A DNA stretch of 64,000 nt from Panaeolus papilionaceus (taxonomy: Eukaryota > Basidiomycota > Agaricomycetes > Agaricales). The notes beneath the pieces are model-generated. The model ran no database searches. It saw only the letters and a program-made list of their open reading frames with translations, and was not told the DNA's origin. Position numbers and translations under genes: made by a program. The DNA lies in assembly GCA_015501605.1 (NCBI GenBank), contig JADNRZ010000019.1:868001-932000 (forward strand), written 5' to 3'. Shown here piece after piece: positions 19,201-63,525 of this stretch (position 1 is its first letter; each line of letters starts with the position of its first letter).

Positions 19201-20340
19201 CGTCCACAAGGCCTGCTTTCGCCAAACGAGGTCCCTGTGGAAAACTGGCAGATCATTTCGGCAGATCTTATTGTCGACCTTCCTAAATCGCGCAACTATG
19301 ATAGCATCTTCGTTGTTGTGGACCGATTATCAAAGATGGTTCGTCTCATACCAACAGTGAAGTCGGTTTCCTCTGAAGGCCTTGCTTGCCTGTATCATGA
19401 CCACGTTTGGAAGGACTTTGGACTACCTGCAAGGATTATTTCAGATCGAGGGACAAACTTTGTTTCCAAGTTTGCCAGAGCGCTTAACTTGCTACTTGGT
19501 ATTTCGCAGAATGTATCAACGTCTTTCAGGCCTCAGACAGATGGACAAACAGAGAGGTTGAACCAAGAAGTGGAGTTGCAGTTGTGGATGTTTGTTAATA
19601 AGAGACAGTCAGATTGGGCAGAGTGGTTGGCTTGCACACAGTTCGCTTTGAACAACAAGGTTAATTCTTCAACAGGTTTTTCTCCCTTTTTCTTAAATTA
19701 TGGTCATAATCCTTCTCGCCCTCTTCAACCCCTTCGTATTTCAAATTGTTCTATTCCTAAAGCTCTCGACTTCGCTGTGAAGATGCATGCAGTGGCACAA
19801 GAATCCAATGCCACTATCAAAATCGCCAATGACGCCATGAAGAGGCACTATGACAAGCATTGCCGCCCCACACCCATCTTCCAGCCTGGTGAGAAAGTTC
19901 TTCTCGATGCTTCCAACATTACCTCCTTTCTACCATCTAAAAAATTAGATCCCAATCAACGAATTGGTCCTTTTACAATCATTGAACAAGTTTCTCCTAC
20001 ATCTTATCGCTTGAACATTCCTTCTGATTATAAAATCTTTGACATTTTTAACGTTGAAAAAATTCATAAATTCATTGAACCTACTTTTCCTTCTCAAATT
20101 GCTTTCAATAATTCGGCTACTCTTTCTAATTCTCATTACCTTCCTGAACCTGATCATTTGTGTATTTCAAAACCCATTCTCCAATCTGTTCTCAATCATT
20201 GCTTTTTACGTAGTGGTAACAACTTCCTTGTTGTGTTGGAGGGTGATACTTCCAAGAACGCGGCATGGATGTCAAAATCCAATTTCATCGACCCCAATGA
20301 TGTTCTGAAAAAATATCTTGCTAGCATAAATCCGTCTTAG
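16263..20340 (+). pseudogene. pol: Gypsy pol (protease, RT, RNase H, integrase), multiply broken
   Basis: Segments in order: aspartic protease near 16890, where the usual D-S/T-G reads LLDSSTTG; an in-frame TGA at 17127-17129 just before NPLVDWRTGKL; reverse transcriptase 17500-18020 (VKKKDGSLRPVQDYRKLN); RT and RNase H 18008-18830 (MDDILIFSKD, EADSSGYATGAVLSQL); integrase zinc finger HPGCAK...CLLCQKAK; catalytic core with ISDRGTNF and PQTDGQTERLNQ; and a chromodomain-like C-terminus ending 20340. A short deletion at about 18005 removes the bases before the YMDD box and shifts the frame. A second frameshift lies near 18980. The element cannot make an active polyprotein. Confidence 0.88.
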
Positions 20341-39907: not shown

Positions 39908-42227
39908 TTACGAATAACCTGATTCCTGCTCCGGTCCTACACTTAGATATTTATCTCTGATATAGAACCTTGCCGTCTCCTGTAATGTAAATGCTACCAT
40001 TCCTGCTGCGGTCCGATGCAATGCCTTCCCTTCGTCGACCAATTCCCTCTGTATTCGAAGTCTCAACTTTCCTCCCGTTGAGTTGCGCAAGAGGCCAGAT
40101 ACCACGTTCAATGCACTTGTCCGACCCATATCATCATCCGATGTGTCGAATCGAGCTACAAGCGCTGGGTGTTCCCGGTCGATGAAAGTGGACCATGCAT
40201 TTGCCTTCAACTCACTCTCTTTTTCTCTATATTCATCCATTTTTTCCGGCTGGATATAGTTCCACATGGTGGTAACCAATGCGAGTTTGTCGTACCCACC
40301 GGCACCATATAGCTTTTTGAATATTTTGAGTGCCACAGAAGCGCCTGCATCAAATCGGACATCGGTTATTCGGTGGAAGTAAATAACGCCAGTTAGCAGC
40401 TTTTTCTGTCGATATCTGAGTTTTCGCATAGCGGCACAGATAATAGATGTTTATGTGAGTATTGGCTACTAAGGGATACTTAATAGAACAAGCGACGACT
40501 TACCTCTCCTCAAGGTACTTGGATATTATCCATAATGTATCTGCATCAGACCGAAAGGGATTGTCAAATCCCGGCGTATCGACCAGAACCAGCGTCCGTC
40601 CTTCAAGGATATTTATTTCATAGGTTTGGACAGCTATTGTGTCATCATCAAGGTGGTGATATCCTGTATGCACGTCTAGTGCATGTGTCAATGACCTGAT
40701 GAACTGCTGACAGCTAATTAGTTTCCTCGACGAGTGGAATCGTTGAGTAGTCTCATTCTGACTTACGGTCGTCTTCCCTACACCAGTAACTCCGCAAACG
40801 CTGTGTAATTTGCAACATTCAGAACAATAGGTAATACGAGGAAATATGTAGATCGTCCGTTTAGTGGAGCAAGCACGAGTTGGTGGGCAAATAGAATACA
40901 TACAGAAGGATGATGTCGCTGTCTTCTTTCTGACCACCTTCAACGAGAGTACTGCAACATCGCAATAAAACGTCAGGGCTTATATCAGACAACCCAATAA
41001 AGGACCTACGGCTTCTCTGGTATAATCTCAGGCGGATTGTCGTGATCGCCGAGCGGCACTTCGGGTGATGGTTGGGTCAGCATCTCACTGCACATTTATG
41101 AATGGAACACAAGTCAGCTTAGAAGAAGATTAACGGGGGACTGCGCAGAAAAGATTGCACTCGGATGGGTACCTATGCAGAGGGAACTGGTATACATACT
41201 CGACCATGGCGAGAGCTGATGACCCTTCATCGAACTCAAGTATTTCGCTTCGAAGTCTCTCGAGATCGCCCCGAAGATTTTGTAGTTTATCCTGCTCCGT
41301 CTGCTGGATGGAATGGGTCCATAGGTCTTGTAGGTCATCTTCGGCATTGGAGACCCTTAATGTAATATTTCTGTACCTCTCTTGCAAGAGACAGAAAACT
41401 GGCGGCTGCACAGGTGGTTTTGTTATGCTTTTATTCATGTCCTCCAGAACGAAACGAGCGCGAAAAGTGGGCACAGGGTACAGAATGGCGTTGAGAATCT
41501 CGTTCGCTGAGGCTGTCGTATTTTGAAACTCGAAGAATTGCAATCCTTTTCCCAGGAATTTCTGAATGACGAAGACAGCGAAACTTTTGAAAGGCTAAAA
41601 GAGAGCAAAATTATCGAAAACATACCTCCCAATGAGTGCGTAATTGTCCGCGTTTTTTTTCTGCAGCCAACTGCGTCCTTTTTGCTGTGGCTTCCGATAC
41701 GCCCTCCTGGTGTCCTACAAGATCCCAAGCCGTTGTCACAAGACACGCCCGCTTTGCTTGGCCCTCTCCACAGAGAACGGTGAAAAGGTCCCAACAGGGC
41801 TTGTTGCCACCTTTGAAAGGGTCGGTAATTCGATCAAGATAGAATAGCGCATGTAATGGAGGAGCATTACTGCGAAGAATTTAAAATTAGTCAAGGCCTA
41901 ATACAAACTTTCCCTCACATAACTTATGACACGTACGAAGTTTTGATCCAATCCCTGATAGCTTTGAGCGCGCTGTACTCGGATATGGTGACGTCTTGAA
42001 ATCCGGGTGTGTCTGCTAGCACGATGCGGTTCTTCCAGGTAGGATGGTTGCGGATCCGATACAAGGTGAAATCGTTGGTGCCGCGTTCAAGGCCGAATGA
42101 TGAGATATTGAGTTTGTTATTTGCGAGTCGCTCGATAAACTTTTCACAGCACACATCAGGTAAAGACAAGCCTTTTGCGTTGAGACGACATACATTGCTT
42201 TTACCGACTCCTGTGCGGCCAAGAAGA
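39908..42227 (-). CDS. AIG1/GIMAP-like GTPase with two tandem G domains (5' end not resolved)
   Basis: Nine joined exons on the minus strand: 42227-42194, 42139-41937, 41869-41626, 41561-41200, 41087-41010, 40951-40904, 40800-40767, 40703-40504 and 40415-39908, at least 570 residues. G domain A has LLGRTGVGKSN, LADTPGFQD and LVTTAWD, followed by a coiled-coil region (DDLQDLWTHSIQQTEQDKLQ). A Pro-rich linker leads to G domain B with VCGVTGVGKTT, LVDTPGFDN, VIYFHRITD and LVTTMWN. The DTPG box and the TTxW motif in the G4 position fit fungal members of the AIG1-like group. The first nucleotide of the model completes a codon from an upstream exon that I cannot find. The upstream DNA instead holds a fragment of the neighbouring coiled-coil gene, so the 5' end may be truncated. 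Confidence 0.8.
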
Positions 42228-46236: not shown

Positions 46237-47604
46237 ATGGGCCTTGTCGCGTCAGCCGTGGCTTACGCCACCGTGACTATTGTCGGTGCTGCGTTCGGGA
46301 TTTCTGCAGCTACAAAGGAACGGGAGGCACAGGAAGAAGAGGCTCGACGTAAAGAGGCTGCACGTCTAGCGGAGGAAGCACGAAAGAAGGCGGAGGCTCT
46401 TGCAAAAGCAAAACAGGAGGCAGAAGAAGCCAAACGGCGCGCAGAAGAGGAAAGGAAGGAGGCGCAGAAGAAACTTAAGGAGGCGGAGGCAGAAACGAAG
46501 AGGTTGCAGGACGAGGAAGAGGCCAGAAGGAAGAGGGAGGAGGAGGCGGCGAAAATAAGGAACAAGAAAGCGGCAGAGGCGCAGAAATCCTTGGAGGATG
46601 CGACTCAACGTGAGGAGGAGGCAAAGAAACGGGCAAAAGAGGCAAAGGAACGTGAAGAGGAAGCAAAGAGGAAAGAGAAAGAAGCAGAACAATTGGCAGA
46701 GGAAGCAAAGAAGAGAGAGAAAGAAGCAGAAAAGTTGGCACAGGAAGCAAAGAGGCAGGAAGAGGAGGCACGGAGGCAAGCGGAGGAATCAGTTGGGAAG
46801 GCGCAAGAGGCGCAGCAACGAGCAGAGGAAGCAAGGAGCCAAGCAGAAGAAGCGAAGAGGAAAGCGGAGGAACAATGGATGCGAGGTATTCCTCCAGAGT
46901 TTCAACCAAACGAGGAGACGAAACAGCAATTCCGACAGCGATATAATATCCAGGATACCAAGATCAACATCGGGATCGTAGGCGAGTCGGGCACTGGAAA
47001 GTCGTCTCTTCTTAATGCCCTTCGTGGATTATCACCACGAGACCAAGGAGCTGCCCGGTGTGGGTTCAACGAAACGACAGCATTCGTGCAAGGATATCCC
47101 GATCGTCGTAACCCGAATATTGTCTGGTACGATGTTCCAGGTGCAAACACGCCTACTGTGAGGGGGTGGACCTATTTTGCTGCACAGGGGCTATACGTCT
47201 TCACCATCATCGTTGTCGTCTTTTCGGACCGATTCACAGAGACTGCTGGGACCTTGATCACCAACGCGAATAAATGCTCCATCCCAGCATTTCTCGTTCG
47301 CACCAAAGGCGACCAGCTCGTCCAGGGTGCACAGTACGATTGGGATGATGATGAGCCATTGTCCGACGAAGCTGCCCGTCAGATAGTTGTCAAGGAGACT
47401 CGCAAGATGGTCTCAGACAATTTGGCTCGACTAAAGTTACCGGATCAGACGGTATATATTGTCTCGAGGTTTGCCATGAAGGATTTGGTGACCAAGGGTG
47501 ATAAGCGTGCTGTTATTGACGAACAGAGGGTCCTCGATGATATTCTTCTCCTCGGTTCGACCGGCACTGCTCAACCCAATCTCGACGGACAAGGATCCTC
47601 CTGA
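46237..47604 (+). CDS. IRG-like (interferon-inducible-type) GTPase with coiled-coil N-terminus, copy 1
   Basis: A single exon of 455 residues. The N-terminus MGLVASAVAYATVTIVGAAF fits an N-myristoylation signal (Gly2, Ser6) overlapping a hydrophobic segment (about 3-25). Residues 27-225 are an almost pure heptad coiled coil of Glu, Lys, Arg and Ala. The linker RGIPPEF leads into the GTPase domain: P-loop GESGTGKSS at 249-257, then LRGLSPRDQGAARCGFNETT, DVPG at 299-302, VVVFSDRFTE, and VRTKGDQ with the TKxD guanine-specificity motif at 356-359. The LRGL, GAA, ETT, DxPG and RTKxD order matches the IRG/IIGP family, known in vertebrates for attacking pathogen vacuoles. The start is set by the ATG at 46237; an alternative at 46156 adds 27 residues. 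Membrane association is likely; a biological role in the fungus is inference. Confidence 0.9.
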   Translation: MGLVASAVAYATVTIVGAAFGISAATKEREAQEEEARRKEAARLAEEARKKAEALAKAKQEAEEAKRRAEEERKEAQKKLKEAEAETKRLQDEEEARRKREEEAAKIRNKKAAEAQKSLEDATQREEEAKKRAKEAKEREEEAKRKEKEAEQLAEEAKKREKEAEKLAQEAKRQEEEARRQAEESVGKAQEAQQRAEEARSQAEEAKRKAEEQWMRGIPPEFQPNEETKQQFRQRYNIQDTKINIGIVGESGTGKSSLLNALRGLSPRDQGAARCGFNETTAFVQGYPDRRNPNIVWYDVPGANTPTVRGWTYFAAQGLYVFTIIVVVFSDRFTETAGTLITNANKCSIPAFLVRTKGDQLVQGAQYDWDDDEPLSDEAARQIVVKETRKMVSDNLARLKLPDQTVYIVSRFAMKDLVTKGDKRAVIDEQRVLDDILLLGSTGTAQPNLDGQGSS

Positions 47605-48230
47605 TTAGATTCTACTATTGTTCTTGTGCGATTAGCCTATTGTACCTTGGAAAATTTGTACCTTTTTCTTACTTTCGAATCACAAATACCATGTCGTTCC
47701 AAATAATCAACAAGATTCGTGAGTGTGATAAAGTTAAGTTACAACCAGGGTGTCAATCCCACGGAAGTCCACGTAAAAGAAGACTTGTTCCAGATCTCTT
47801 CCAAACGGGCACACAGCAACTCCACGGCAGCCGAGTACCCTTGAACTAAGATATGCATTGAAAGCATGAGGCTTGAGATGACCATGAGTCATTGAAGTTG
47901 ACGAAAATTTCCAAGTAGCCCCACAAACGCAGAGTACCACGAAAGAAAATTAAGATTCAAGTTGACGTGCTCCATCGAAGACACATATCCTAGTCCCTTC
48001 ATTCACCTGTCAAGATCAGCCCCGTTCACTACACCTCCGCATCAATTTTCAACTCGTGCGAGTCGAATCGTAAATGGTGATGATTGATGATACTTGTATT
48101 GGAGCATACACAGCCTACCTGAGGCGTCTACGATGAGCTTTAAAACATCCACTTTTTTGCAAACTCAATATTCATCTTGTGTGACAATCAAATACCCCCT
48201 CAACCGTCATAGGATCATTTAGCGCTTTTC
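47605..48230. other. Intergenic region between IRG-like copies 1 and 2
   Basis: It holds the 3' end of copy 1, the degenerate minus-strand gene remnant at 47734-47940 and the promoter of copy 2. The layout parallels that upstream of copy 5. Confidence 0.5.
47734..47940 (-). pseudogene. Decayed copy of the 56980-57651 gene
   Basis: The minus-strand sequence around the CG-x-x motif and the T/S-M-T/S-H block (TSMTHGHLKPHAFN) parallels LRCGTSNDTK and FTMSHDCTIGPHV of the gene at 56980-57651. It has the same orientation and position, divergent from the next IRG-like gene. The reading frame is disrupted and the second exon is missing. Similarity is weak and judged by eye. Confidence 0.4.
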
Positions 48231-49535
48231 ATGGGGAATTCATCGTCGTCACATTGGGAAGAGGAGCAAGCTAGATCCCGGCGAGAAGCTGAACATCATG
48301 CCGCCTTACAACGACAACAGGAAGAAGAAAGACGCCGGCGGGAAGAGGAAAACAGACAACGGCAGCAGGAAGAAGCCAGACGCCGGCAGGAGGAGGAAGA
48401 AAGACGCCGGTGTGAAGAGTCACGCATGAGGGAACGAGCAGAGCAAGCAAGAAGACAAGCTGAGCAGGCGAGACGACAAGCTGAGGAGGATATGAGGAGA
48501 CGTGCAGAGGAGGCTAGAAAACAAGAGGAGGAGACGAAAAGACGTGTGGAGGAGGCTAGAAGACGAGAGGAGGAGGCAAGAAGTCGTGAAATGGAAGCCA
48601 GGAAACGAGAGGAGGAGGCGTGCAGATTGGCCGAGGAAGCTCGGAAGCGAGAGGAGGAAGCAAAGAGACAAGAGGAAGAAGCAAAGAGACGAGAGGAGGA
48701 AGCAAGGAGACAGAGGGAGGAGGTAAGAAGGCAAGAGGAGGAAATGCAGAGGCGAGCGGAAGAAGCAGTGAGACAAGCACAGGAGATCCAGAGGCAAGCT
48801 GAGGAAGCGAGGAGGAAAGCAGAGGAGGCAACGAAAGAAGCAGAAGAGCGATTGATGCAAGGCATTCCTCCTGAGTTTAGGCCAACACCGGAGATCAGGC
48901 AGCAGTTCCGTCAGCGCTACGCAATTCAGGATGACAAGATTAACATCGGAATCGTTGGCGAGTCGGGTATGGGGAAATCCTCGCTCCTCAATGCACTTCG
49001 TGGATTATCGCCACGAGATCCAGGTGCGGCACGGTGTGGATTCAACGAAACGACAGGTTCTGTTCAGGGCTATCCCGACCCTTGTCGCCCAAACGTTGTC
49101 TGGTACGACGTTCCAGGTGCAAACACGCCGAGTGTGCAGGGGTGGATGTATTTCGCTGAACAGGGGCTCTTCACCTTCAACATCCTCGTTGTCCTTTTTT
49201 CCGGTCGATTCACTGAAACTGTGAGTACCTTGCTCAGAAACGCGAACAAATGCTCCACCCCATCGTTCCTCGTCCGCACCAAATCCGATCAGCTCATTAA
49301 AAACACACAAGCCGATTATGACGACGAGCCTTTGTCCAACGAGGCTGCTCGGGAAGTGGTCGTCACCGAGACTCGTCAAATGGTTGCGGATAACTTGGCT
49401 CTATCGGAGCTACCAGACCAAACGGTGTATATTATCTCACAGTTTGCGATGAAGAGCTGGGTTAAAAATCAAGATTTATCCGCTGTCATTGACGAGAAGA
49501 GGTTCTTGGAAGATATTTTTCGCTCGGTCGGGTAG
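48231..49535 (+). CDS. IRG-like GTPase with coiled-coil N-terminus, copy 2
   Basis: A single exon of 434 residues. It starts MGNSSSSHWEEEQARSRREA, a strong N-myristoylation consensus (Gly2, Ser6), without the hydrophobic segment of copies 1 and 3. A long Glu/Arg heptad coiled coil extends to about residue 212. The GTPase domain has GESGMGKSS at 243-251, LRGLSPRDPGAARCGFNETT, YDVPG, and VRTKSDQ. Copy 5 is the closest relative, sharing the SHWEEE start, NNQD/KNQD near the C-terminus and the same C-terminal end. The heptad region is longer than in copy 5, so the coiled coil has changed length by repeat gain or loss. All G motifs are intact, so the protein is probably functional. Confidence 0.9.
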   Translation: MGNSSSSHWEEEQARSRREAEHHAALQRQQEEERRRREEENRQRQQEEARRRQEEEERRRCEESRMRERAEQARRQAEQARRQAEEDMRRRAEEARKQEEETKRRVEEARRREEEARSREMEARKREEEACRLAEEARKREEEAKRQEEEAKRREEEARRQREEVRRQEEEMQRRAEEAVRQAQEIQRQAEEARRKAEEATKEAEERLMQGIPPEFRPTPEIRQQFRQRYAIQDDKINIGIVGESGMGKSSLLNALRGLSPRDPGAARCGFNETTGSVQGYPDPCRPNVVWYDVPGANTPSVQGWMYFAEQGLFTFNILVVLFSGRFTETVSTLLRNANKCSTPSFLVRTKSDQLIKNTQADYDDEPLSNEAAREVVVTETRQMVADNLALSELPDQTVYIISQFAMKSWVKNQDLSAVIDEKRFLEDIFRSVG

Positions 49536-51384
49536 ACACATTTAAATTGTACAATTTTACCCTGAGGCGATAGTTCTGCACTACAGCACATTTACATGAA
49601 AATTTCCAATACGATATGTATCCCTAAATACACGTTTTCGACTTTTCCATTCACCGATTGGTGATTCAGAGTAATGAGGCGCGAGAGGCAGGGTACAGCT
49701 AGTAGCCGGCGAGCCCAAGGGAAACTAATGGCACTGCTGAGGCTGAGGAAGTACAATTGAGAGAAGTCCAGGGGATGTACACAGAACCTGAAGAGCGGAG
49801 AGAAGCAGAGGCAGTGCCAGAATGAAGCTTCCCTCTCATAGATGATGAGTGTACATACGGTGACTCAAAGGACGCAGGATGGGAAGCAATTGCAAAGGAA
49901 TGAAAACCATGGACCATTATGCCAATAGATGATGAACGACTACCATTCTGGCTCATATAGTGGGCGAATGTAGAACAACAAGGTAATGGGATACAGGCAT
50001 GAAGAGCGCAGTATGAAGCTAGCGCTGTTGTTGAAAGGTACGGGCCCGGAAGAGGATGCAATATCGGTGAAAGGCGTCTCATCAAACTTGATGAATTTGT
50101 TTGCGTGGCATTTGAGGTAGTGGAGGTTTGGAAGATGAGTGAAGGGACAATGATGAGGCCACGGGGTTGATGAGATGGTTGAAGCGAATGTTGATGAGGA
50201 GGTTGAAGCGACGCGATGGCGATGATGTCAAGATCTTAGATCATGGATCGGTAGATCGCGTCCCCCACGTATATACGTTTGGCCCCTGAACTCATACTTA
50301 GACTGTCCCCATCACCACCCCAATGCAACATGGCGCCTCGAAATTAGTCATCGTTGCACGCACCTTGATACACGTTGGTATTGAAGCCCATTTGTCATGG
50401 AGAGCTTGAAATTATGGCCTCTATCATTTATTCCAAGCGAATTTGAAGTGAGTCGCGCTTCATGTCAAGACTCCTCATCAATAAACTCGAGGTGAATGTG
50501 TTGGTAGAGTGAAAGAAGATAGTGATGACGCACAGAGCAAGCTTCGAGAGAGGAGGGGAATGGCTAAGTGAGTGACAGGTGAACTAAGGTAAAAACGTGA
50601 CGAAGGAGACGATTTGAACAAAATGAAATATAAACGAAGGGTGCACGGGCACTGGATGACGACGAACGATGAAATACGAGAACTGAGGTAGAAAGATCCT
50701 TATATTGCTTGTAGAGTCTCTAGACTACGTACATCTTATGTGGGAGGCTACGGAAAATCGTAAGTAGAAACAACAGCAACGTCCAGATGTAGGACATGAG
50801 TAAAAAACTGAGCTAAGGAAGAATTCAAAACGTTGGAGAGGCAAGATAGGATGGGAGAGGAGAGATACAGCGCTAGCATATATCGGGATGCGGAGAGCCG
50901 ACGATCCGTCATCGTAGTAAGCGCATGTACATGTTCGATTCAGATGCTAGATGGGACCATACAGAACGTCAGACAACTGTCTGCAACCCCCCTGAGTCTT
51001 ACTCAATGGCATGACAGTGATTTAGAGTGTAAATCTCGACGTGGAGGAGGGCCTGCTTTGATATCACAAACATTGTATAGTCGTGACGAACACGTAGATC
51101 AAGATGATCATGAGATATTCACTCAGTTCCCTCAAACAACAAATGTATTGTGAACATGAGGCGACAGTTATGACAGGTGGAAAAACCTTAACGTTGGGTG
51201 TGAAGTAGGGTGTCTTCGTCTTTCTTCTACCCCATAGGTGTATCAAGATAACAAAACACGTGGAGTCTGCGCACCACCGTAATTATAACCACGCGTCAGA
51301 ACTTATGTACAGGATGATAAAACTTTCAAGATCCCAATATTCAATCCACACCTTGAACCAGAACCATTCAATTTAGCTTTCATC
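49536..51384. other. Intergenic region between IRG-like copies 2 and 3
   Basis: About 1.85 kb without a credible gene. It contains the broken coiled-coil gene fragment at 50041-50150. The rest shows no repeat or domain that I can name. Confidence 0.45.
50041..50150 (-). pseudogene. Second duplicated 5' fragment of the coiled-coil gene
   Basis: The minus strand encodes HLPNLHYLKCHANKFIKFDE and then TPFTDIASSSGP. This parallels LPNPRYIEHKANGFVDFDDT and PFTDTTELGG of the gene at 38028-38980. The match covers about 35 residues and then ends. There is no start codon or downstream exon. Confidence 0.6.
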
Positions 51385-52680
51385 ATGGGAGGCTTTGTAT
51401 CCGTCGCTCTACCTATCCTCAATGTCCTTGGAGTCATTGCAGCTTCGGCTGCTAGGAGGGCAGAAAGGGAAGATGATCAACATCGAGTGGCTGAACACCA
51501 AGTCGTCATACGTAGCCGACAGGCAGAACAGCTGACAGCGGCGGCCCGGGGGGCTGAAGAAGAGAGGAGGCAGGCTGAGAGGGCAAGGAGGGACGCAGAA
51601 GAAACAATGAGGAGGGTGGAAGAGGAACGAAGGCGAGCACAGGCGGAAATGAGGGAAGAACAGGCGCGCATGAGAGAGCAAGGGGAGGAGATGAGAAGGC
51701 GAACAGAAGAAGAAACAAGGAGGCGTATGGAGATGGTCAGACGACAAGAGGAAGACGCAAGGAGGCGTGAGCAGGACGCCAGGAGACGTGAAGAAGAAGC
51801 AGAGCGATCTGCAGAGGAAGCGAGGAGGAGAGGGGAAGAAGCCGAGAGACAAGCCGAGGAGGCGGTGAGACAGGCACGGGAGGCGCAGAGACGATCAGAC
51901 GAAGCGAGGCGGGAAGCAGAAGAAGCGAGGAGGAGAGTTGAGGACCAATGGATGCGAGGAATCCCTCCTGATTTTAGGCCTACCGAGGAGATTAAACAGA
52001 GGTTTCGCCAGCGATACAGGATTCAAGATAGCAAGATCAACATCGCTATCGTTGGTGAGGCGGGTATGGGCAAGTCGTCTCTGCTCAACGCGCTTCGTGG
52101 GCTATCCCCAAGAGATCGAGGCGCCGCGCCGACTGGGTTCAACGAGACGACGGCAATTGTGCAGGGGTATCCCGACCTCCGCAACCCAAATATAGTATGG
52201 TACGACGTCCCAGGGGCGAGTACACCAACCGTGCAGGGGTGGATGTATTTCGCTGAACAGGGGCTCTTCGTCTTCAGCCTCATCGTCGTGGTCTTTGCAG
52301 ACCGATTCACGCAAACCACAGGTACCTTGATCAGCAATGCAAACAAGTGCTCCATTCCAGCGTTTCTGGTCCGCACCAAAGCTGATCAGCTCGTTCGGAA
52401 TGTGCTCGACGACTACGAAGACGAGCCATTATCTGACCGGGAGGCTCGAGAGCTGGTCGTTACTGAGACTCGCCAAATGGTCGCAGGTAATTTGGCTCGG
52501 TTGAAGTTGCCGATGCAAAGGGTTTACATCGTCTCGAAATTTGCGATGAAGAGATTGGTGAGCAGTGGAGACACGAGTGCTGTGATTGACGAGCAACGGG
52601 TACTTGATGATATTCGCCATCTTGGATTGTTAGATAACTCCCATTCTGATGTTGGCATGCGACATGAGTTGTCCTACTGA
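51385..52680 (+). CDS. IRG-like GTPase with coiled-coil N-terminus, copy 3
   Basis: A single exon of 431 residues. The start MGGFVSVALPILNVLGVIAA combines a myristoylation consensus (Gly2, Ser6) with a hydrophobic segment at about 4-23, as in copy 1. The heptad coiled coil spans about 27-190. The GTPase domain has GEAGMGKSS at 224-232 (Ala replaces the usual Ser), LRGLSPRDRGAAPTGFNETT, YDVPGASTP, VVVFADRFTQTTG and VRTKADQ. The ADRFTQTTG block groups it with copy 4. It has a C-terminal extension (NSHSDVGMRHELSY) not seen in copies 2 and 5. Nothing suggests inactivation. Confidence 0.9.
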   Translation: MGGFVSVALPILNVLGVIAASAARRAEREDDQHRVAEHQVVIRSRQAEQLTAAARGAEEERRQAERARRDAEETMRRVEEERRRAQAEMREEQARMREQGEEMRRRTEEETRRRMEMVRRQEEDARRREQDARRREEEAERSAEEARRRGEEAERQAEEAVRQAREAQRRSDEARREAEEARRRVEDQWMRGIPPDFRPTEEIKQRFRQRYRIQDSKINIAIVGEAGMGKSSLLNALRGLSPRDRGAAPTGFNETTAIVQGYPDLRNPNIVWYDVPGASTPTVQGWMYFAEQGLFVFSLIVVVFADRFTQTTGTLISNANKCSIPAFLVRTKADQLVRNVLDDYEDEPLSDREARELVVTETRQMVAGNLARLKLPMQRVYIVSKFAMKRLVSSGDTSAVIDEQRVLDDIRHLGLLDNSHSDVGMRHELSY

Positions 52681-55600
52681 TCGACTTGTACCACGAAAAC
52701 CTCAACGCTTGTAGCAGGTGTGTCAGGGTTCTTCAATTATGAATACATTTGGGCATGAAAGGTATTGAAAGGCGGATGTTGTTATTTGGGTGAATGGAGG
52801 TAGGGATGAAGCTTAAGCAGCATGCGGTGATCATGTTGAGTGCACGGTTACCGGTTTGGTCCGGTCGCCGGGCCCAAACAAACACAACACAACGATTTGG
52901 ATTTGGATTTGAACTCAACCCACCATCACCACCTTCCTTGCAGTTTGAGTTTTCACCATTGCTTATTCTTCCATTATGTTCTTTTTTTTTTTTTTCAATT
53001 CCTTCGACTTATGACTTCATCCTGCGTCTGTCTGGTCTGTGAGCGGTCAGCTCAGGATGAGGCCCAATTATCTTTTCGTGGCTCGTCGGACGTCCTCACC
53101 ACCATTGGTCTATATGTCAAAGGTTGTTACGTGCAACAGTCTGTGAGCAGTTGCATGAAGGGGTGTCTTTTATTTTTTTCTCTACTATCTTGTCCTCACC
53201 GGCGCTGGTCTATGAGCCAGAGGATGGACGTCATTGGCCATCTCTAAGTGGTTAACACGGGGAGCAGAATTTCGGAACACTTATTCTCCCCGCTACCTCT
53301 GGTCTATGAGCCAGCGGCGGGTTGGTTGGCCATCTGTGAGTGGTCAGCAGGGTTTAAGAAGGTATTCCGGCTCCTTGATCCTACCTCTCCTGGTCCATGA
53401 GCCAGCGAGTGGCCGCCCGCTATCTATTAGTAGCCCTCGGGGGACAGGATTTTTTTTTTTCGTGCATTTCTTGCTCCCACATACGTTGGTTTATGAGCCA
53501 TATTGACGTACGTCGGCCACTATGAGTGGTTGCGTGAGAGCAATATTTGCTCTTTCCTGGTCACCCCCTGGTCTATGAGCGAGAAGACGTACACTTTCCA
53601 TCTATAAGTGGCAAGCTTGTCGGAGAGGGTTTATGAATATTTTCCCATTTACTCATTTATTCTTCATTTCCCCACAACCGCTCGTCTTGTGAGCGGCTAT
53701 TACGGGGATTTGGATTTTATTTTATTGCTCTGCTTTCACCACCCCTCGTCCATGACTCAATCATTTTATTTGCTCATTCTTTCGACGTCGCTGGTGTATG
53801 AAAATACAGCCAGCCGAGCGTCGCTGAATGGTCAGTCAGTCGCATTTGTTCTTTTTCTCTTCTTTGTTCTGCGTCTCCATCGTCGCCTTCTCTCCTTACC
53901 CCATCTCTGTGTTGTCCGGCACTTTGAGTCCCTTACCTCGCCCGTATATTTTCATGCCCTTGTATCATCTCGTTTTTCACCCTCTTACCCGACATCTACT
54001 TGAGACAACTATGCCCCCAAGGTCGACTTGACCAATGCCAGGGTCGCTTACCCTGTTCATAAATCTCGCAGATACCTCTGATGCTTAGCTCTGGCTCAAT
54101 TTACTACAGTATAGGTGGCTAGTGGCCGCATGACTTTTCTCCGCCTCGCCACCTGCGATCTTTGGGTCATGCGTTTAATGTTGACAATACACAAGTTGTT
54201 GCTAGAGTTCAACCCACTTCACTCCGTATGCTTATTCCTTGTCCCAAAGATGTCACCCGTGAGCTGTTGTCGTTTCGTCGATGATTGGCAACAATGGACG
54301 CATCCTCATTTCGCGATTTTTCATTCTCATCATTTTTCTCCCCCTTCTGATCTCCTCAAATGACACCTCTCTGAACCTGTGCGAGCCTTAGGACTTCGCT
54401 TGAAGCTTCCCTAGGGTTGTCTTATTCCTCTATTACAACATACCTCGCACTCATTTCGATTTCTGATCTGTCCTGTCTCGTGTACTGTTCAATTTGGAAT
54501 CCTGTATCTAGGTTTATTGTATTTCTCAACCAATGCGCTTCTCGCTTCTCGTCCCTCTCCTTGGTGTTGCACAATGTCCACGCTGCTCTTCTCTCCTGTT
54601 TACCCAAATTTATCATGTGCGTTGCCTTGATACATATCCTACCTGCGATCTCTTCACTTCGGTGTCGTTTAAGTTGGATCTAGGAACCTACTCGACGTGT
54701 TGTAGTCAATCTGACTGTCTTTGGTCTCATACAATCGTGTTATCGATGGTGACTAAATTTGGTAGTGGGTACTCATTGTGGAGTATCTGACTCACACCAA
54801 TCACTCCCTCCAACCTCCAGGTCAATTCATATTTCACCCGTCTATCGCAGGGATCATACATTTGTCTTCACAATCTAAGGTTCAGACCTTGGGTGCTATA
54901 TTCCATTCGAACATGTCCAGCCTCGAGTCGAACGTTTTGGGGCTCTGTCCAGTAAGGTTTGATGGACTTGTAACATCAGGCCTGCTGGCGGCGATGTGAT
55001 ATCTTGTTGCTATATTTACGGGCACAATGACTTTGGTAAATGCCCATGTAAGATTTGTGGTACGTTGAATTGGGTTCCGAACAAAGTTGCGATTGGATTT
55101 TCAATCACCAGAAGGATATTGATATTCGCTCTGACGCCGTTGTTCGGACTCGATCCTCTACGTTGCTGCGTGAAACGGGTTTTGAATGTAATGACGCTTC
55201 CCAAACACCTGGTTGGCAGCCATATCGAATGGTCGATCATGGACAAAATGGTGAAGCCATCGTATTTCGTTAAGACATGATGGCATTGTGAATATAAAGT
55301 ATAGCCTTATTGGCAAACAGGGAATGTGAAAGAGGGTTAGTTCTAACTTTATTTACGATGTTCATGATGCACCCTCAGCAACACGAGGTTCAATACAGTC
55401 AGATTTTAGCTATCAATGCACTATGCCGCTGAGCCATGGTGTGGGTCCAGAACTAATATTACCCCATGAAGGGAATAACATTCATGCACTTGATGTGTGA
55501 AGGCGAATCCTATTCAATTCTCATGTACATTTACCCGTTATCTGCCATACATGTCAAGATCAAAGCGGGATGCTTCTCCGCCGTATCGTGATTCCATATT

Positions 55601-55700
55601 AAACAGAACGTATATCACCATATATTAAGCACATCTAAAGGGGTTTTCACCGACATCGCAACACTTGTCTCGAAATCAAACTCTTGATTCCTTCCAATCT
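52681..55700. other. Intergenic segment between IRG-like copies 3 and 4, duplicate of 43-46.2 kb
   Basis: It carries the second 95-bp repeat array (53030-53830), then a segment matching 44331-46236 in block order. Short poly-T runs occur near 52982 and 53450. No intact gene is seen. Confidence 0.5.
53030..53830 (+). repeat. Degenerate ~95-bp tandem repeats (array 2)
   Basis: The units start near ggtctatgagccag at 53208, 53301, 53393, 53490 and 53570, spaced 80-100 bp apart, with variants at 53038 and 53107. Each unit also has ggccatctNtgagtgg, which is partly complementary in shape to the first motif. This is the same repeat as the array at 43200-44330, and both arrays lie about 2-3 kb upstream of an IRG-like gene. 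Confidence 0.65.
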
Positions 55701-56912
55701 ATGGGCAGTTCACAATCTTCGTCTCGGAGGGCAGAAGAAGCAGAGGCTAGGCGTCGAGAGGCCGAACAACAAGCAGCCAATTATAAACAGCATGCGGAAC
55801 AGCTTGCAGCAACAGCTCGAGCAGCGGAAGGAGACAAGCAACGTGCAGAGGAAATAAGGAAGGAGGCCGTGGAGACGATGAGAAGGATGGAGGAAGAAAG
55901 ACGACGCACTGAGTCAGAGATGAGGGAAGCACGAGAGAGCATGCGAGAGCAAGCAGAGGAGATTAGGCGTCAGGCGGAAGAAGATATGAAGAGGCTTACA
56001 GAGGAGGCCAGGGGGCGAGAAGAGGATGCGAAGAGACGCGAGGAAGAAGCCAGGGTGCGTGAAGCAGAAGCACAGCAGTTGGCAAAGGAAGCGATGAGAC
56101 GAGGGGAGGAAGCTCAGAAGCAGGCAGATGAGTTTGTGAGGCTAGCCCAGGAGGCACAGATGCGATCAGACGAAGCAAGGAGGCAGGCTGAAGAGGCGAG
56201 AAAGCGAGCAGAGGACCGATGGATGCGAGGGATTCCTCCCGAGTTTAGGCCCACGGAGGAGATTAAACAGAAGTTTCGAGGACAATACGGGATCCAAGAT
56301 AACAAGATCAACATCGCCGTCGTTGGCGAGTCGGGCATGGGCAAATCCTCTCTTCTCAATGCGCTTCGCGGATTGTCGCCGAAAGATCAAGGGGCCGCAC
56401 GGTGTGGTTTCAACGAAACGACAGCCACTGTGCAAGGCTATCCGGATCTTCGAAACCCAAACATCGTCTGGTACGACGTTCCAGGAGCAAACACGCCAAC
56501 TATCCAGGGCTGGATGTATTTTGCTGAACAGGGACTCTTCGTCTTCAACGTTATGGTCGTTGTATTCGCAGATCGATTCACGCAAACTACAGGCACCTTG
56601 ATCGACAACGCCAACAAATGTTCCATGCCATCATTCCTCGTTCGAACCAAAGCCGATCAACTCGTTCGAAATGCAAAGTACGACTACGATGACGACGAGC
56701 CTTTGTCCGACGATGCCGCCCAGAAGCTGGTCGTCACTGCGACGCGCAAAATGGTCTCGGACAATTTAGCTCGCTTGAGGTTGCCAAGGCAGACGGTGTA
56801 CATCGTCTCAAAGTTCGCCATGAAGAAACTGGTCACCAGTGGGGATATGAGTTCGGTTATTGACGAGAAGCGCATCCTCGATGATATTCTTCTTTCTGGT
56901 TTGACCGACTAG
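55701..56912 (+). CDS. IRG-like GTPase with coiled-coil N-terminus, copy 4
   Basis: A single exon of 403 residues. The ATG at 55701 is chosen because the frame upstream has no ATG; it gives MGSSQSSSRRAEEAEARRRE, a classic myristoylation signal. No hydrophobic N-terminal segment is present. The coiled coil spans about 9-175. The GTPase domain has GESGMGKSS at 209-217, LRGLSPKDQGAARCGFNETT, YDVPGANTP, VVVFADRFTQTTG and VRTKADQ. The C-terminus DDILLSGLTD is like that of copy 1. It is the closest sister of copy 3 by the ADRFTQTTG block. Confidence 0.9.
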   Translation: MGSSQSSSRRAEEAEARRREAEQQAANYKQHAEQLAATARAAEGDKQRAEEIRKEAVETMRRMEEERRRTESEMREARESMREQAEEIRRQAEEDMKRLTEEARGREEDAKRREEEARVREAEAQQLAKEAMRRGEEAQKQADEFVRLAQEAQMRSDEARRQAEEARKRAEDRWMRGIPPEFRPTEEIKQKFRGQYGIQDNKINIAVVGESGMGKSSLLNALRGLSPKDQGAARCGFNETTATVQGYPDLRNPNIVWYDVPGANTPTIQGWMYFAEQGLFVFNVMVVVFADRFTQTTGTLIDNANKCSMPSFLVRTKADQLVRNAKYDYDDDEPLSDDAAQKLVVTATRKMVSDNLARLRLPRQTVYIVSKFAMKKLVTSGDMSSVIDEKRILDDILLSGLTD

Positions 56913-56979
56913 ACCGATCGTAACTTGCGATTTGGACGTCTTTCTCTTGATTATGATGCTATGCTGTGCGTTAATGGAC

Positions 56980-57651
56980 TCATCCCTTCAAATTTCTTAC
57001 CAGCACATTATGCGGATGATGATTGTAGTCAGTTTGAGTACCATCTTGTCGCACTTTGTAAAACATGTACCTAGTCATGTAGTCACCGACTCTGCATCCC
57101 ATGTTCTTTAATTGAGCCAATTTCAAAAATAAATCTCTAGAAACATCGTCTCCCAGACCTAAGAGGGCCTTACATGACTCGTGTTGGTGGGGAGGCCAGA
57201 ATCCATCACATTCCGCTGTTTCCACTTGTTTGAATCCATACCATGGAACGTCGCTCATGATGTCAAAATTCAACGCCTGGTGATTCCGAGAGAATGGGTG
57301 ACGATCGAATTCCACTAGATTTGGCGGTGCGATGAGGATTACAGACAAAACCTAATTACCACGAACTCGATTTGAAAGCAGATGCACTCCTATGCCTTAC
57401 AGATGTGTCATGCCAAGACCACACTTCATCCCCGCAGTCCAACTATGTACCCTCAAACGACGTTATGTATTAAATTCGTAATTTACATGAGGCCCGATAG
57501 TACAGTCATGACTCATAGTAAACTTGTAATGAAGCCTTGACTTGGTGTCATTACTTGTGCCGCAGCGCAAAACCAAGATTCGAGAGTCGATTTTTTCGAT
57601 GTGAATGCAGGTCACCTTGGTGTACCTGTAGAATAAGTTTGTAGGGTGCAT
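56980..57651 (-). CDS. Unknown small protein gene embedded in the GTPase array
   Basis: Two minus-strand exons, 57651-57487 and 57351-56980, join in phase 0 through a GT-AG intron and give 178 residues. Visible blocks are YTKVTCIHIEKIDSRILVLR, SHDCTIGPHVLSVILIAPPN, SDVPWYGFKQVETAECDGFW, PPHQHESCKALLGLGDDVSR and TDYNHHPHNVLVRNLKG. His and Cys residues are frequent, but no zinc-finger spacing is recognised. No signal peptide is seen. It stops 67 nt from the end of IRG-like copy 4 and starts 162 nt from the start of copy 5, in the opposite direction. A decayed copy lies at the equivalent place before copy 2, so it probably duplicates as a unit with its neighbour. Confidence 0.6.
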
Positions 57652-57813
57652 TGCAGTACTGCAGGCCGCGCGGCGTTGTGAGCGGGTGTTGAATCATAAA
57701 TGGGTCCATTGTGCTTATAAGACCAAACCTTCCCCATAATTAAATGAGTCGATCTCGCGCGTACCTTGACTACCGTATTATCGTCAATATCTTGAACCTT
57801 CATTCTCACAATC
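57652..57813. promoter_or_regulatory. Short divergent intergenic region, candidate shared promoter
   Basis: Only 162 nt separate the start of the minus-strand unknown gene (57651) from the start of IRG-like copy 5 (57814). Both genes must be driven from this interval or from inside each other's 5' parts. No TATA box is obvious. The inference is positional only. Confidence 0.35.
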
Positions 57814-59028
57814 ATGGGCAATTCTGGATCTAGTCATTGGGAAGAAGAGGAAGCTAGACGCCGCCGAGAGGCTGAACATCATGCAGCCATGCAACGACAG
57901 CAAGAGGAACAGCGTGCAGAAGAGGCTCGAGCTGCAGCAAAAGCACGAGCAGCGGCTGAAGAGAGGAGACGCGCAGAGGAGATAAGGAGGGAAGCGGAGG
58001 AAGCGATGAGGAGAGCAGAGGAAGAAAGACGGAGGGCAGAGGCGGCAATGAGAAGAGAAGAAGCACGAATGAGAGAACGAGTAGAGCAGGCGAGGAGACA
58101 AGCAGAAGAAAATATGAGGAGACATGCAGAGGAAGTTAGAAGGCAGGAGGAGGAGGCAAGGCGACGCCAGGAAGAAACAAGGAGACGAGAGGAAGAAGCA
58201 CGACGATTGGCAGAGGATGCAAGGATGCGGGAGGAAGAATTACGAAGACAAGCAGAGGAGGCGGTGAGACGAGCAGAGGAGGTCCAGAGACAAGCGGAGA
58301 AAGCAAGGAGAGAAGCAGAGGAGGCGAAGAGACAAGCAGAGGAGCGATTGATGCGAGGCATCCCCCCAGAGTTTCGGCCAACCCCAGAGATCAAGAAGCA
58401 GTTCCGTCAGCGCTACGCAATTCAGGATGACAAGATCAACATCGGAATCGTTGGCGAGTCGGGCATGGGCAAATCATCTCTCCTTAACGCCCTTCGTGGA
58501 TTATCGCCTCGAGATCCAGGTGCTGCTCGGTGTGGATTCAATGAGACGACAGCGTCTGTACAAGGCTATCCCGACCCTCGCAACTCCAACGTCGTTTGGT
58601 ATGACGTTCCAGGTGCAAACACTCCAAGCGTTCAGGGGTGGATGTATTTTGCTGAACAGGGCCTATTCGTCTTCAACATAATGGTCGTTGTCTTTTCGGA
58701 TCGATTCACAGAGACCGCTGGGACCTTGATTGACAATGCGAACAAGTGTTCAATTCCATCCTTTCTCGTACGCACCAAAGCGGACCAGCTGATTCGAAAT
58801 ACTCAAGATGACTGCGACGAGCCCTTGTCCGACCAGGCCGCTCAACAATTGGTTGTCACAGAGACTCGCCAAATGGTCTTGGATAATCTGGCGCGATTGG
58901 ATTTGCCGAGTCAAATGGTATATATAGTCTCACAGTTTGCTATGAAGGGATGGGTGAACAATCAAGATACGGCAAGTATCATTGATGAGAAGAAGCTTTT
59001 AGAAGATGTTCTTCGCTCGATTGCGTAG
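57814..59028 (+). CDS. IRG-like GTPase with coiled-coil N-terminus, copy 5
   Basis: A single exon of 404 residues. The start MGNSGSSHWEEEEARRRREA is almost the same as copy 2, with the myristoylation consensus (Gly2, Ser6) and no hydrophobic segment. The coiled coil runs from about 9 to 180 and includes an Ala-rich stretch (EARAAAKARAAAEERRRAEE). The GTPase domain has GESGMGKSS at 214-222, LRGLSPRDPGAARCGFNETT, YDVPGANTPSVQGWMYFAEQ, VVVFSDRFTETAG and VRTKADQ. It is the last of the tandem array and lies 258 nt from the stop of the convergent single-domain AIG1-like gene. Confidence 0.9.
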   Translation: MGNSGSSHWEEEEARRRREAEHHAAMQRQQEEQRAEEARAAAKARAAAEERRRAEEIRREAEEAMRRAEEERRRAEAAMRREEARMRERVEQARRQAEENMRRHAEEVRRQEEEARRRQEETRRREEEARRLAEDARMREEELRRQAEEAVRRAEEVQRQAEKARREAEEAKRQAEERLMRGIPPEFRPTPEIKKQFRQRYAIQDDKINIGIVGESGMGKSSLLNALRGLSPRDPGAARCGFNETTASVQGYPDPRNSNVVWYDVPGANTPSVQGWMYFAEQGLFVFNIMVVVFSDRFTETAGTLIDNANKCSIPSFLVRTKADQLIRNTQDDCDEPLSDQAAQQLVVTETRQMVLDNLARLDLPSQMVYIVSQFAMKGWVNNQDTASIIDEKKLLEDVLRSIA

Positions 59029-59286: not shown

Positions 59287-60266
59287 TTAACTACTAATTT
59301 GTGCGAGATAAAATCTGGCTGTCGCCGCTAAATTAAATGCTGCCCTACCAGCTTCCGTCCGGGGGAGTGCCACTCCCCGTTCCAATTCCCTTTGAAGCTT
59401 GAGCCTCAGTTTTGGCCCCATGGATTGTTGAAGGAGGTTTAACACAATACTCATAGCACTACCCTGAGCTTTTCCAGGTGACGCGTCAAATCGAGCGAGA
59501 GACGCGGGGTCATTTGGGGGGAAAAGTGTTGCCCAGTGTTCGCTTCTTAGCTCCTTTTCTCTGTTCTCGCATTCTTCCGCATTTTTGGAGGGGGCCTGGA
59601 CGTTATTCCACATCGTTGTGACCATTGCAAGTTTCCCGAGTCCCTCATTACCATATATGCCTTTGAATATCCTCATAACTCTAGAAGCCCCAAGATCGAA
59701 TCGCACTTCGGAAATGGGGTGGAGGAAGACGATCCCGCTGAAGAAATGCTTCTTCTGGTACCTACATGACATTAGGCGGGGGTATAAGATCAAGAACATG
59801 CGTCAACTTACATGGATTGCAGATATTTCGAAATCTCCTCTAAGATGCTGGAATTGCTTCGATCTGCATCCTCAAATCCTGGTGTATCAACCAGAACAAG
59901 TCTACTCCCTGTATCCTCCATCTTTATAAATGTGAATGTGATCTGCTTTGTACCAGAAGTAAGGTCGTGGTGGCCGATATTCTCAAGAGATTCGCCATCT
60001 TGGCAGGACTCGATGAACTGAATCATAATTAGTCTTCTCTCAACGCTGAGAGCATGGTGGAACACAAAGAGGTACTAACGGTTGTCTTTCCAGACCCAGT
60101 AGCGCCCATGACACTGAATTTATAAAAGTTAGTGAGCAAGTTTCTAGCGGGTTCATGGAACATGAATCGTCATACAGTACCAGGATATCATCTTCCTTAG
60201 GTTGAAAACTGCTCGTGGGTGCAGGCAAAAGTCAGAGTCGTGATGCAAGTACTGGTGTCCATACAT
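59287..60266 (-). CDS. AIG1/GIMAP-like GTPase with one G domain
   Basis: Four minus-strand exons: 60266-60181, 60113-60080, 60017-59812 and 59761-59287, 266 residues. Motifs are VMGATGSGKTT (P-loop, alone in the 34-nt second exon), LVDTPGFED, IVFLHPISE and MVTTMWN, closely matching G domain B of the flanking two-domain genes. Its C-terminal half aligns block by block with theirs (KLRLKLQREL, RTEAGRAAFNL). The 5' end is uncertain. In the paralogs the P-loop is preceded by D-I/V-x-L-L, which here appears one base out of frame (GATGATATCCTG). Either the start lies at the ATG used here or a base was inserted at the donor site. Confidence 0.75.
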
Positions 60267-61011: not shown

Positions 61012-63525
61012 ATGAGTAGTACATCTTCCCCACATCCTGCACCCAAGAACGTAGTATGTGTTGGTTCTCTGCAACAGAACTTTTAGTTCAACGTTAACTT
61101 TCCCTTCAGTTTGCAATCGACCCCATTGGGCTCAATGGGTTGCACGAGAGCGATAAAATCATCGTGTACGTAAAAAAATTTCTGCGTGCGTGATGCAGGC
61201 TGATAAGAAGACGCGAGTAGCCTTCTGGGACGCATCGGAGCCGGGAAAAGCAATGTACGCTTCAAGGTTACGCTGAATCATGACCGATGTTTGAGCTGGT
61301 TTCGCAGTTTATAGAGCAACTTGCTAGCAAAGACCTCAAAATCTCGTCCTTCAGTGGTAACCGTGGGACCAACGATCTAACACTATACCGCATCCACGAC
61401 CATCCAGCCTGGAACGATCGCATTGTGCTCGCAGATACACCAGGATTCCAGGACGTCACCATATCCGAGTACGGCTCAATAAAGACAATTAAGCAGTGGA
61501 TTGAGGATTCGTACGCCTCCTCTGAAATATTACGCATGTGAAGCAGCTACTGATTATCTATTTTTATGATAGGAAAGCTCCTCGTTTACATGCCTTGTTT
61601 TATGTCGATCGCATAACCGACGCTGTCAAAGGAAGCGACAAGCAATGTTGGGATCTTTTCATGAGCCTTTGTGGAAAAGATTCAGCAATCAGGGCATGTC
61701 TTATGACGACCGCTTGGGATCTAGTGCACGCAGATTCCATGAGAAATCGTGCAGAAAAACGGCGCGAGATGTTGCAGACACATTGGAATGTATGTGCTTC
61801 ACTCCGAGATTTTCTCAGACCTTTACATTGATAAACGACGTTGACGGACTCGCCTAGCCTTACTTGAAGAAAGGATTGCGACCTTTCGAGTTCCAGAACA
61901 CCTCAGAGTCCGCAAATGACATCCTTGTGGCTGCTCTTGGCCCTGTCAATGACGATCGCTCTATTGGGCCGAAGCACAACAGCGTTCGAGTCATCCAATT
62001 TGTTCTGGAGAACAAGAAAATTACGCTGATAAAGCCACCCGTGAAAAAGTATATCTTCTGCCTCTTGGAAGGTCGATTCAAAAACGTCGTCCTGGAGCTC
62101 TCCGAGGCTGAAAAGCTGCTGCGGAGTGATCTGACTACGAGTCAAACACGGGCTCGTGTGAAAACTCTCCAGGCGGCTAGGCAGCAATTGCAAAGTGAGA
62201 TGCAGGAGTTTACTGCAGCTTCGCCATTTCTCAGCAAGGTCATAAAATGGTTTATGTAAGTAGAAATTGACCTTGAGAGTTTACCAGGCCAATACCTTTG
62301 CTGATCGCGTTCCATTGAGCAGCGCATTTTTGACTGAGCCACCGCCAGAGGTATCTCCGCCAGGTCATGATCAAACAAGCCCTCCAGACGTACCCGACAA
62401 GCCGCAAGATCCACAGACCGGGAATATACCAAAGCCGTAAACCATTTATCATTCTACCTGGTGTCAACTGTTGACGCCTTATTCGTAACCTTACAGTGCT
62501 CCAGCAACAGATGACCAACAGCCAGACACCAGCAACTTCGCAGATGTCCTGAAGTGGTACATCCAGCGTCGCGAAGGGGATACAGGGGTCAACCGTGACA
62601 TCGTGTTGCTGTACGTATTCTGTCCTTTACTGGGCTGTCAAATTCACGCGAGTTTTACACAGTATATTTGGGAGTACTGGTGTAGGGAAGACATCCGTAA
62701 GTCGCGGTGGTACTGGCTATCAGGCACTTCCAATGAATGAACTCATGCGTTATTTGACAGTTCATACAATCATGCGTGAACTCGGATAGCCGCTTGCGTT
62801 TCCAGGACATAGGACATCACGGCCTGGACGCAGGTACAAAGCAAGTCGGGAAAATCACGTTGGTTATTCCAGAAACTGGCGGAAATCTGATACTTGTGGA
62901 TACACCAGGATTTGACGATTCAACGAGGGGTGACGCAGAAGTATTAACAGAAGTCGCCCGTTATCTCGAGGAGAGGCAAGTGACCGCTCGCTGACCGATT
63001 CTGATATCTAACACCCATCATACATATCGGGGACTGCACTGATCATTCAGCTATCGTGCGGGTCAACTCCTAGATGGTGTAATTTTCCTCCACAAAATAA
63101 CCGATATCCGTTTTGATGCGGGGCAAACAGCAACACTCAACTTATTTGGAAAGTTGTATGGCGATGATAGGTACGACAAAGTCGCTTTGGTTAGCACTAT
63201 GTGGAATGATATCCCACTATCGATACGGGCCACCTATGAAGCAAAAGAAGACGAAATCATGAGTACAGCGTGGCGACCATTCCTCGCACGGAGAAATGCG
63301 GCACTTGTTGCTCGATACGATTCATCGGGTGATGACGTAGGCCAGACAAGTGCTCGGAGCGTGATATCTGCTCTCCTACTCAACTCGAGAGAAGAAAAGC
63401 TGCGACTTCGACTGCAGAGGGAATTGGTCGATAAAAAGATGAACTTACCCGGCACGGAGGCAGGAAAGGCGGCATTTACATTACAAGAGTCCGTCAGGTA
63501 CTATTTAACACGGCTCGCATTGTAG
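61012..63525 (+). CDS. AIG1/GIMAP-like GTPase with two tandem G domains, complete
   Basis: Eleven exons: 61012-61053, 61110-61165, 61221-61254, 61308-61510, 61573-61789, 61858-62255, 62323-62436, 62497-62610, 62663-62696, 62761-62975 and 63051-63525, giving 633 residues from MSSTSSPHPAPKNV. G domain A has KIIVLLGRIGAGKSN, LADTPGFQD, LHALFYVDRITD and LMTTAWD. A helical segment and a Pro/Asp-rich linker follow. G domain B has DIVLLIFGSTGVGKTS, LVDTPGFDD, VIFLHKITDIRFD and LVSTMWN. Both P-loops lie in 34-nt exons. The intron after 62975 starts with GC instead of GT. The gene is the mirror image of the minus-strand gene at 39908-42227. The likely role is GTP-dependent self-assembly, by analogy with GIMAPs; this is not shown here. 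Confidence 0.85.

Follow-up and report, generated by a model that had tools for sequence, protein, structure and literature searches.

The vertebrate IRG (p47) GTPases, among them Irga6, Irgb6 and Irgb10 (Pfam family IIGP, PF05049), provide the nearest described comparison for a tandem array of five GTPase genes, g1 to g5, that we analysed in the dung mushroom Panaeolus papilionaceus, an agaric basidiomycete. The array lies within a window, by which we mean the whole 64,000-base stretch analysed (C11:868001-932000, C11 being contig JADNRZ010000019.1), of a 50.85 Mb genome in 71 contigs. In Irga6, Glu77, Thr102, Gly103, Glu106, Thr108, Ser132, Arg159, Lys161, Lys162, Asp164, Asn191 and Lys196 have been reported as needed for assembly and activated hydrolysis, with Glu106 essential for catalysis, and the Gly2 myristoylation site is required for recruitment to the vacuole (PMC3042988, PMC4774019). 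A 2005 survey of the IRGs gives a large hydrophobic residue at the position of Ras Q61 as a feature of the family, calls its origin obscure and reports no unambiguous homologue outside vertebrates (PMC1297648). Among the papers listed when we searched Creative Commons-licensed PMC articles for treatments of IRGs in fungi or of IRG evolution, none dealt with fungal IRG-like proteins. The family is already labelled in databases, where proteins called 'interferon-inducible GTPase-domain-containing' or 'IRG-type G domain' come from Pisolithus, Suillus, Scleroderma, Mycena, Galerina and other fungi.

Bacterial IRG-like GTPases (planctomycete, Synechococcales and others; P0158-P0190) also have a G domain of IRG type that scores above the Pfam cut-off. 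Their N-terminus is short, with a median of 34 residues ahead of the P-loop, whereas a median of 338 residues follows from the P-loop on, compared with 191-210 in the copies of this genome, and in the three that were scanned the profile match extends to position 256-291. The immunity GTPases GBP and GIMAP are lipid- or tail-anchored, join a G domain to a helical extension and are expanded in clusters, but their order is opposite to that of the array proteins, with the G domain first and the anchor last. Neither family was in the Pfam lists of g1-g5; the AIG1 (AIG1/GIMAP) profile was not listed at E <=1, where most matches with E above 0.1 are removed by the filters of HMMER.

We found that the array proteins share with vertebrate IRGs the G domain by profile, its predicted fold, most of the pairing-surface residues, an MGxxxS start (present in part of the mouse family) and the arrangement in tandem paralogue clusters. 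They differ in that they lack the C-terminal helical domain and carry a long charged rod ahead of the G domain, that Ala or Ser stands at the Q61 position and Lys161 is lost in the fungal clade, and that Asp164 is lost in this genome; interferon is not applicable to a fungus. What is added here is a conserved myristoylation signal, predicted from the N-terminus, the missing helical domain and a mixed conservation of the pairing surface.

Results

Five intact genes encode an IRG-type G domain

The five genes were all on the plus strand, at 46237..47604 (g1, 455 residues), 48231..49535 (g2, 434 residues), 51385..52680 (g3, 431 residues), 55701..56912 (g4, 403 residues) and 57814..59028 (g5, 404 residues). 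Each opens at the first in-frame ATG past an upstream in-frame stop and none contains an internal stop. The motifs GESGxGKSS (GEAGMGKSS in g3), LRGL, GAA, ETT, DVPG and VRTKxDQ could be aligned in all of them, in agreement with the initial annotation, which had described five intact same-strand genes with these motifs.

The profile search that the same annotation had proposed gave IIGP scores of 77.7-82.7 bits for the five products against a curated cut-off of 24, the match covering profile positions 30-203 of 375. It spans residues 237-414 in g1 (77.7 bits), 232-409 in g2 (80.7 bits), 213-388 in g3 (78.7 bits) and 198-375 in g4 (82.7 bits), and the G domain is encoded on the plus strand from about 46945 to the end of the open reading frame (ORF) in g1 and from about 48924, 52021, 56292 and 58417 in g2 to g5. 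Since these scores exceed the cut-off, and since the ratio of nonsynonymous to synonymous rates (dN/dS) in the G domain is 0.08-0.19, the five ORFs are not due to chance. The proposed comparison with Irga6 was made on a predicted structure of g5, in which the Irga6 G-domain fold is present, and g4 can be aligned to Irga6 65-193 free of gaps. An IRG-type G domain in g1-g5 is thus supported by profile, predicted fold and pairing-surface residues.

The C-terminal helical domain of IRGs is missing. The last residue of the g5 protein aligns with Irga6 252, and the distance from the P-loop to the protein end is 191-210 residues in all 12 genome copies. The proteins are therefore not IRGs in the strict sense, and the IRG-like identity first proposed holds for the G domain but not for the whole molecule. 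In the two copies scanned against NCBIfam, the EngB/YsxC and Era profiles stayed far below their cut-offs: YsxC (26.1 bits, cut-off 124.45) and Era (21.7 bits, cut-off 237) in g5, and Era (15.3 bits, cut-off 116.25) in g1. The Pfam scan of g1-g5 gave a septin match in g4 alone, at E 0.022. On profile scores and predicted fold we rejected an EngB/Era- or septin-like identity; a firm placement in another GTPase family, septin- or Era-like for instance, was what the initial annotation had itself named as speaking against IRGs.

In the whole genome 12 IIGP matches exceed the cut-off, every one of them an uninterrupted ORF: C11 has six, C2 three, C70 two and C3 one. Among them is c11x, a sixth close copy on C11 that ends about 16 kb ahead of the window start. 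A degraded IRG-like copy without an intact P-loop was spotted by eye on C70 near two intact ones (L009 6182-6679, minus strand); it had no Pfam match at E 0.01. At L009 3836-4246 (minus strand), an ORF of 137 residues is similar to the C70 copy next to it in the hydrophobic N-terminus and the helix but has no G domain; it may be an anchor that stands alone or the remnant of a copy.

Conservation of the pairing surface

Residues were counted in 168 distinct fungal-clade domains from 149 database proteins and the 12 genome copies; many rows were metagenome proteins, and membership of the fungal clade was assigned by similarity. The protein relatives were the best 120 of 236, with 8000 and 7997 candidates scored. 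The counts leave out seven database proteins that represent copies of this same genome, whole or in part, and P0086, which has no G domain by pattern. The domain pattern demanded a P-loop and DxPG, and those columns are conserved by construction; the aligned segment stops short of Lys196, and the counts cover the other positions.

Arg159 and a Thr at position 132 were present in 168 of 168 domains, Thr108 in 167, Gly103 in 163, Glu106 in 161 and Asn191 in 152. Thr in place of Ser132 also occurs in two of four animal IRG segments. The remaining positions were kept less often: Asp164 in 124, Thr102 in 95, Glu77 in 39, Lys162 in 6 and Lys161 in none. All five array copies had Glu77, Gly103, Glu106, Thr108, Thr132 and Arg159 (Glu106 and Arg159 correspond to E244 and R297 of g5), four had Asn191, and none had Lys161 or Asp164. 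The Q61 position held Ala in 154 domains, Ser in 13 and Gly in one, and a large hydrophobic residue in none. As judged from the aligned residues, the switch core is retained, whereas the rim has been lost in part. The array G domains may therefore pair in some GTP-dependent way.

Most full-length rows among the other fungal proteins have the same MG start, charged N-terminal part and C-terminal G domain, and many keep the Asp164 that this genome has lost. Seven of 150 (P0040-P0046, from Boletales and Mycena kin) are natural fusions with two IRG-type G domains per chain, in which pairing could take place within the molecule.

A predicted myristoylation signal and a charged rod precede the G domain

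The array proteins start with MGLVAS (g1), MGNSSS (g2), MGGFVS (g3), MGSSQS (g4) and MGNSGS (g5), followed by a charged rod, with a hydrophobic stretch in between in g1 and g3. The MGxxxS start was thus found in all five copies, compared with 14 of the window's 1135 open ATGs, a count that takes in these five, although tandem copies are not independent. Six of the 12 genome copies had MGxxx[ST], two had MG alone, and the four with neither showed, by eye, hydrophobic stretches near the N-terminus. Among the other fungal-clade proteins starting with M, 66 of 145 had MGxxx[ST] and another 31 had MG; where at least 180 residues preceded the P-loop (79 fungal-clade proteins), the numbers were 47 and, for MG alone, 19. 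None of 34 bacterial IRG-like proteins starting with M had MGxxx[ST], and four had MG. This pattern suggests that the array proteins are N-terminally myristoylated.

The rod is 153-193 residues long, and Glu, Arg, Lys, Ala and Gln make up 74-88% of it in the window copies. In g5 two helices were predicted, at residues 7-127 and 135-180. The coding DNA consists partly of 21- and 42-base tandem repeats, i.e. heptads. Compared with 500 shuffles, a periodicity of 3.5 was clear in g1 and g2, marginal in g4 (P 0.026) and g5 (P 0.034), and no higher than in the shuffles in g3 (P 0.254), whereas pairs of Glu/Asp and Arg/Lys at i to i+4 outnumbered those of every one of the 500 shuffles in all five copies. 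What the initial annotation called a coiled-coil module is a long N-terminal helix rich in Glu, Arg and Lys, for which a single charged helix is at least as good a fit as a coiled coil.

Near c11x on C11 there are also several ORFs that are charged and rod-like but lack a G domain (L013 476-1684; L014 3-962 and 2902-3408), and the two that were scanned had no Pfam match. The metagenome proteins P0192 and P0193 carry an IRG-type G domain behind a long N-terminal part, which in P0193 includes a helix-like charged stretch. They stand outside the fungal clade and may represent the rod and G domain arrangement elsewhere; P0193 was not among the tree rows.

The array is old and its family widespread

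Trees contained 49 fungal rows, the first with 58 G-domain rows and the second with 12 of the 36 bacterial-search proteins added. Because the outgroups sit on very long branches, and the program issued a warning that long branches meet, we claim neither a root nor a direction of transfer. The five genes and c11x formed one clade (100/99 in both trees), bearing out the proposed local expansion in a basidiomycete. Support for the five alone was 95/75 in the 58-row tree and 91/59 with more bacterial relatives, and the 49 fungal rows made a single clade in both (87/85 and 98/99). Five P. cyanescens proteins formed a separate clade (96/94 in the 58-row tree); four of them each come from a 55,997-base contig and are therefore probably clustered too.

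The dN/dS values of the G domain, given above, cover the 15 pairs of g1-g5 and c11x, with synonymous sites near saturation, and the pairwise rates of these copies gave no sign of positive selection. Rod dN was above G-domain dN, the synonymous sites of the rod being saturated in many pairs. DNA matches between copies longer than 100 bases kept to the ORFs within 7 bases, with an identity of 72-78% over ten pieces of at least 800 bases and 67-70% over two shorter ones. Within 500 upstream and 300 downstream bases, the only non-coding likeness was one 39-base upstream piece shared by g1 and g4. Both a burst in the very recent past and gene conversion of recent date were rejected, given the ORF-bound matches of 67-78% and the near-saturated synonymous sites. 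Because dN/dS is low and the non-coding DNA no longer matches, and in view of the trees, the array reads as a lineage-specific expansion that is old and has been maintained.

Other species carry the family as well. Named relatives included proteins from Panaeolus, Galerina, Crassisporium, Mycena, Pisolithus, Scleroderma, Suillus, Paxillus, Boletus, Postia, Daedalea and Geopyxis, the last an ascomycete. A contig scan for relatives gave three loci at 28-39% identity, two of the three genomes being barely over the Pfam cut-off; of 246 sampled genomes of the phylum of those loci, eight matched at E 0.001, five over the cut-off and one strongly.

Neighbourhood of the array

To the left and right of the array are pieces of a second GTPase-like family, interrupted by introns and resembling AIG1 by eye, at window positions 39908-40429 and 59290-60074 (minus strand) and 61284-62256 and 62758-63522 (plus strand). 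None was above a Pfam cut-off, the best matches being Dynamin_N (E 0.0072), AIG1 (E 0.011) and MMR_HSR1 (E 0.014), in one piece each. With 150 of 226 candidates scored, a 160-residue piece matched the genome in at least 109 places, with concentrations on C3, C11 and C29. Some of these matches flank the array to left and right, and one is about 2 kb away from the IRG-like copy on C3. Two of the six IRG-like places were within 10 kb of such a match (binomial P 0.005) and three within 50 kb (P 0.004). This proximity was not used, since the 83 of 109 matches entered are strongly clustered, the list is a lower bound and the idea was post hoc.

The left part of the window is occupied by transposon genes: a transposase of family tnp2 (8979-10595, plus strand), a DUF659 match below the cut-off (13051-13611, minus strand) and a retroelement (14797-20340, plus strand) with reverse transcriptase, RNase H and integrase over their cut-offs and gag and protease below. 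About 4 kb past the window end is a NACHT-type gene (L015 3997-5400, minus strand), with NPHP3_N at 83.0 bits and NACHT at 36.1 bits, both over cut-off.

Discussion

Taking the sequence and the structural model together, we propose that the array encodes membrane-anchored GTPases built from a myristoyl signal, a charged rod and a C-terminal IRG-type G domain that pairs much as Irga6 does, a molecular mechanism to which we give a probability of roughly 0.55. N-myristoyltransferase would acylate Gly2, with the hydrophobic stretch reinforcing the anchor in g1 and g3, and the rod would keep the G domain away from the membrane, by at most about 25 nm, a length that assumes the two predicted helices to be in extended form (167 residues x 0.15 nm). 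In the GTP state, two G domains would pair head-to-head through the surface of Gly103, Glu106, Ser/Thr132, Arg159 and Asn191, placing the Glu106 equivalent to trigger hydrolysis. Pairing on the same membrane would cluster the proteins, pairing across two membranes would tether them, and paralogues differing in anchor and rod may pair with one another. With the acyl anchor and the pairing head at opposite ends of the rod, membrane clustering or tethering is the simplest reading. The product would be a GTP-timed coat, scaffold or tether and not a scission machine, scission being unlikely because there is no dynamin-like stalk.

Several observations count against this mechanism. Lys161 is replaced in 168 of 168 fungal-clade domains and Lys162 in 162; Asp164, at which D164N is enough to stop Irga6 assembly, persists in 124 of 168 yet in 0 of the 12 copies of this genome; Glu77 is found in just 39 of 168; and g1 has Gly in place of Asn191. 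Irgb10 has Arg and Glu at the Lys161 and Asp164 positions. An MG start is absent from four of the 12 genome copies and from 48 of the 145 other proteins, some of which are truncated models.

The likeliest use of such a molecule would be cell-autonomous defence, in which foreign or damaged membranes are marked or walled off. Lineage-specific expansion and a degraded copy fit a defence or nonself role. Nothing in the sequence demonstrates it, however, and the copies are old and constrained, their pairwise rates giving no hint of positive selection. We regard defence as a good hypothesis, not a result, and hold it tentatively.

The same molecule could instead serve normal cell biology, such as vesicle or organelle tethering or septal or fruiting-body structure, its copies arising by ordinary duplication. 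The low dN/dS of the G domain, the age of the copies and the wide occurrence of the family in Agaricomycetes agree with this explanation, whereas lineage-specific expansions and a degraded copy, both indirect, would be unusual for a core function; we think it rather unlikely, though deserving of weight. Hyphal nonself recognition, in which variable anchors and rods of a polymorphic incompatibility-type locus recognise and the G domain triggers, would fit the variation of anchor and rod among copies that keep their G domain, and the NACHT-type gene nearby. NACHT genes are common in agarics, so that one such neighbour means little, and the Pfam scan of the five products listed no incompatibility domain, which leaves this role improbable. 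That an EngB/Era- or septin-like TRAFAC GTPase unrelated to IRGs acquired the IRG motifs by convergence is hardly credible given the IIGP scores, the weak YsxC, Era and septin matches and the near-universal Arg159 and Glu106.

With its MGxxxS signal and most of the pairing surface but no helical domain at the C-terminus, the fungal clade would separate GTP-driven membrane pairing from the helical domain, two things that are joined in the solved animal IRGs. It thus offers a way to test which of the two is enough for a membrane to be marked or attacked, and whether innate immunity based on GTPases exists in fungi. It is a speculative idea, and one we consider unlikely at present, that mushroom-forming fungi run cell-autonomous immunity on IRG-type GTPases which share the myristoyl signal of the mammalian system, and a G-domain pairing surface that is much alike, but in which a rod replaces the stalk, with clusters such as this one as the arsenal. 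If it were true, IRG-type defence would either predate animals or have been put together on two separate occasions with one and the same G domain at its core.
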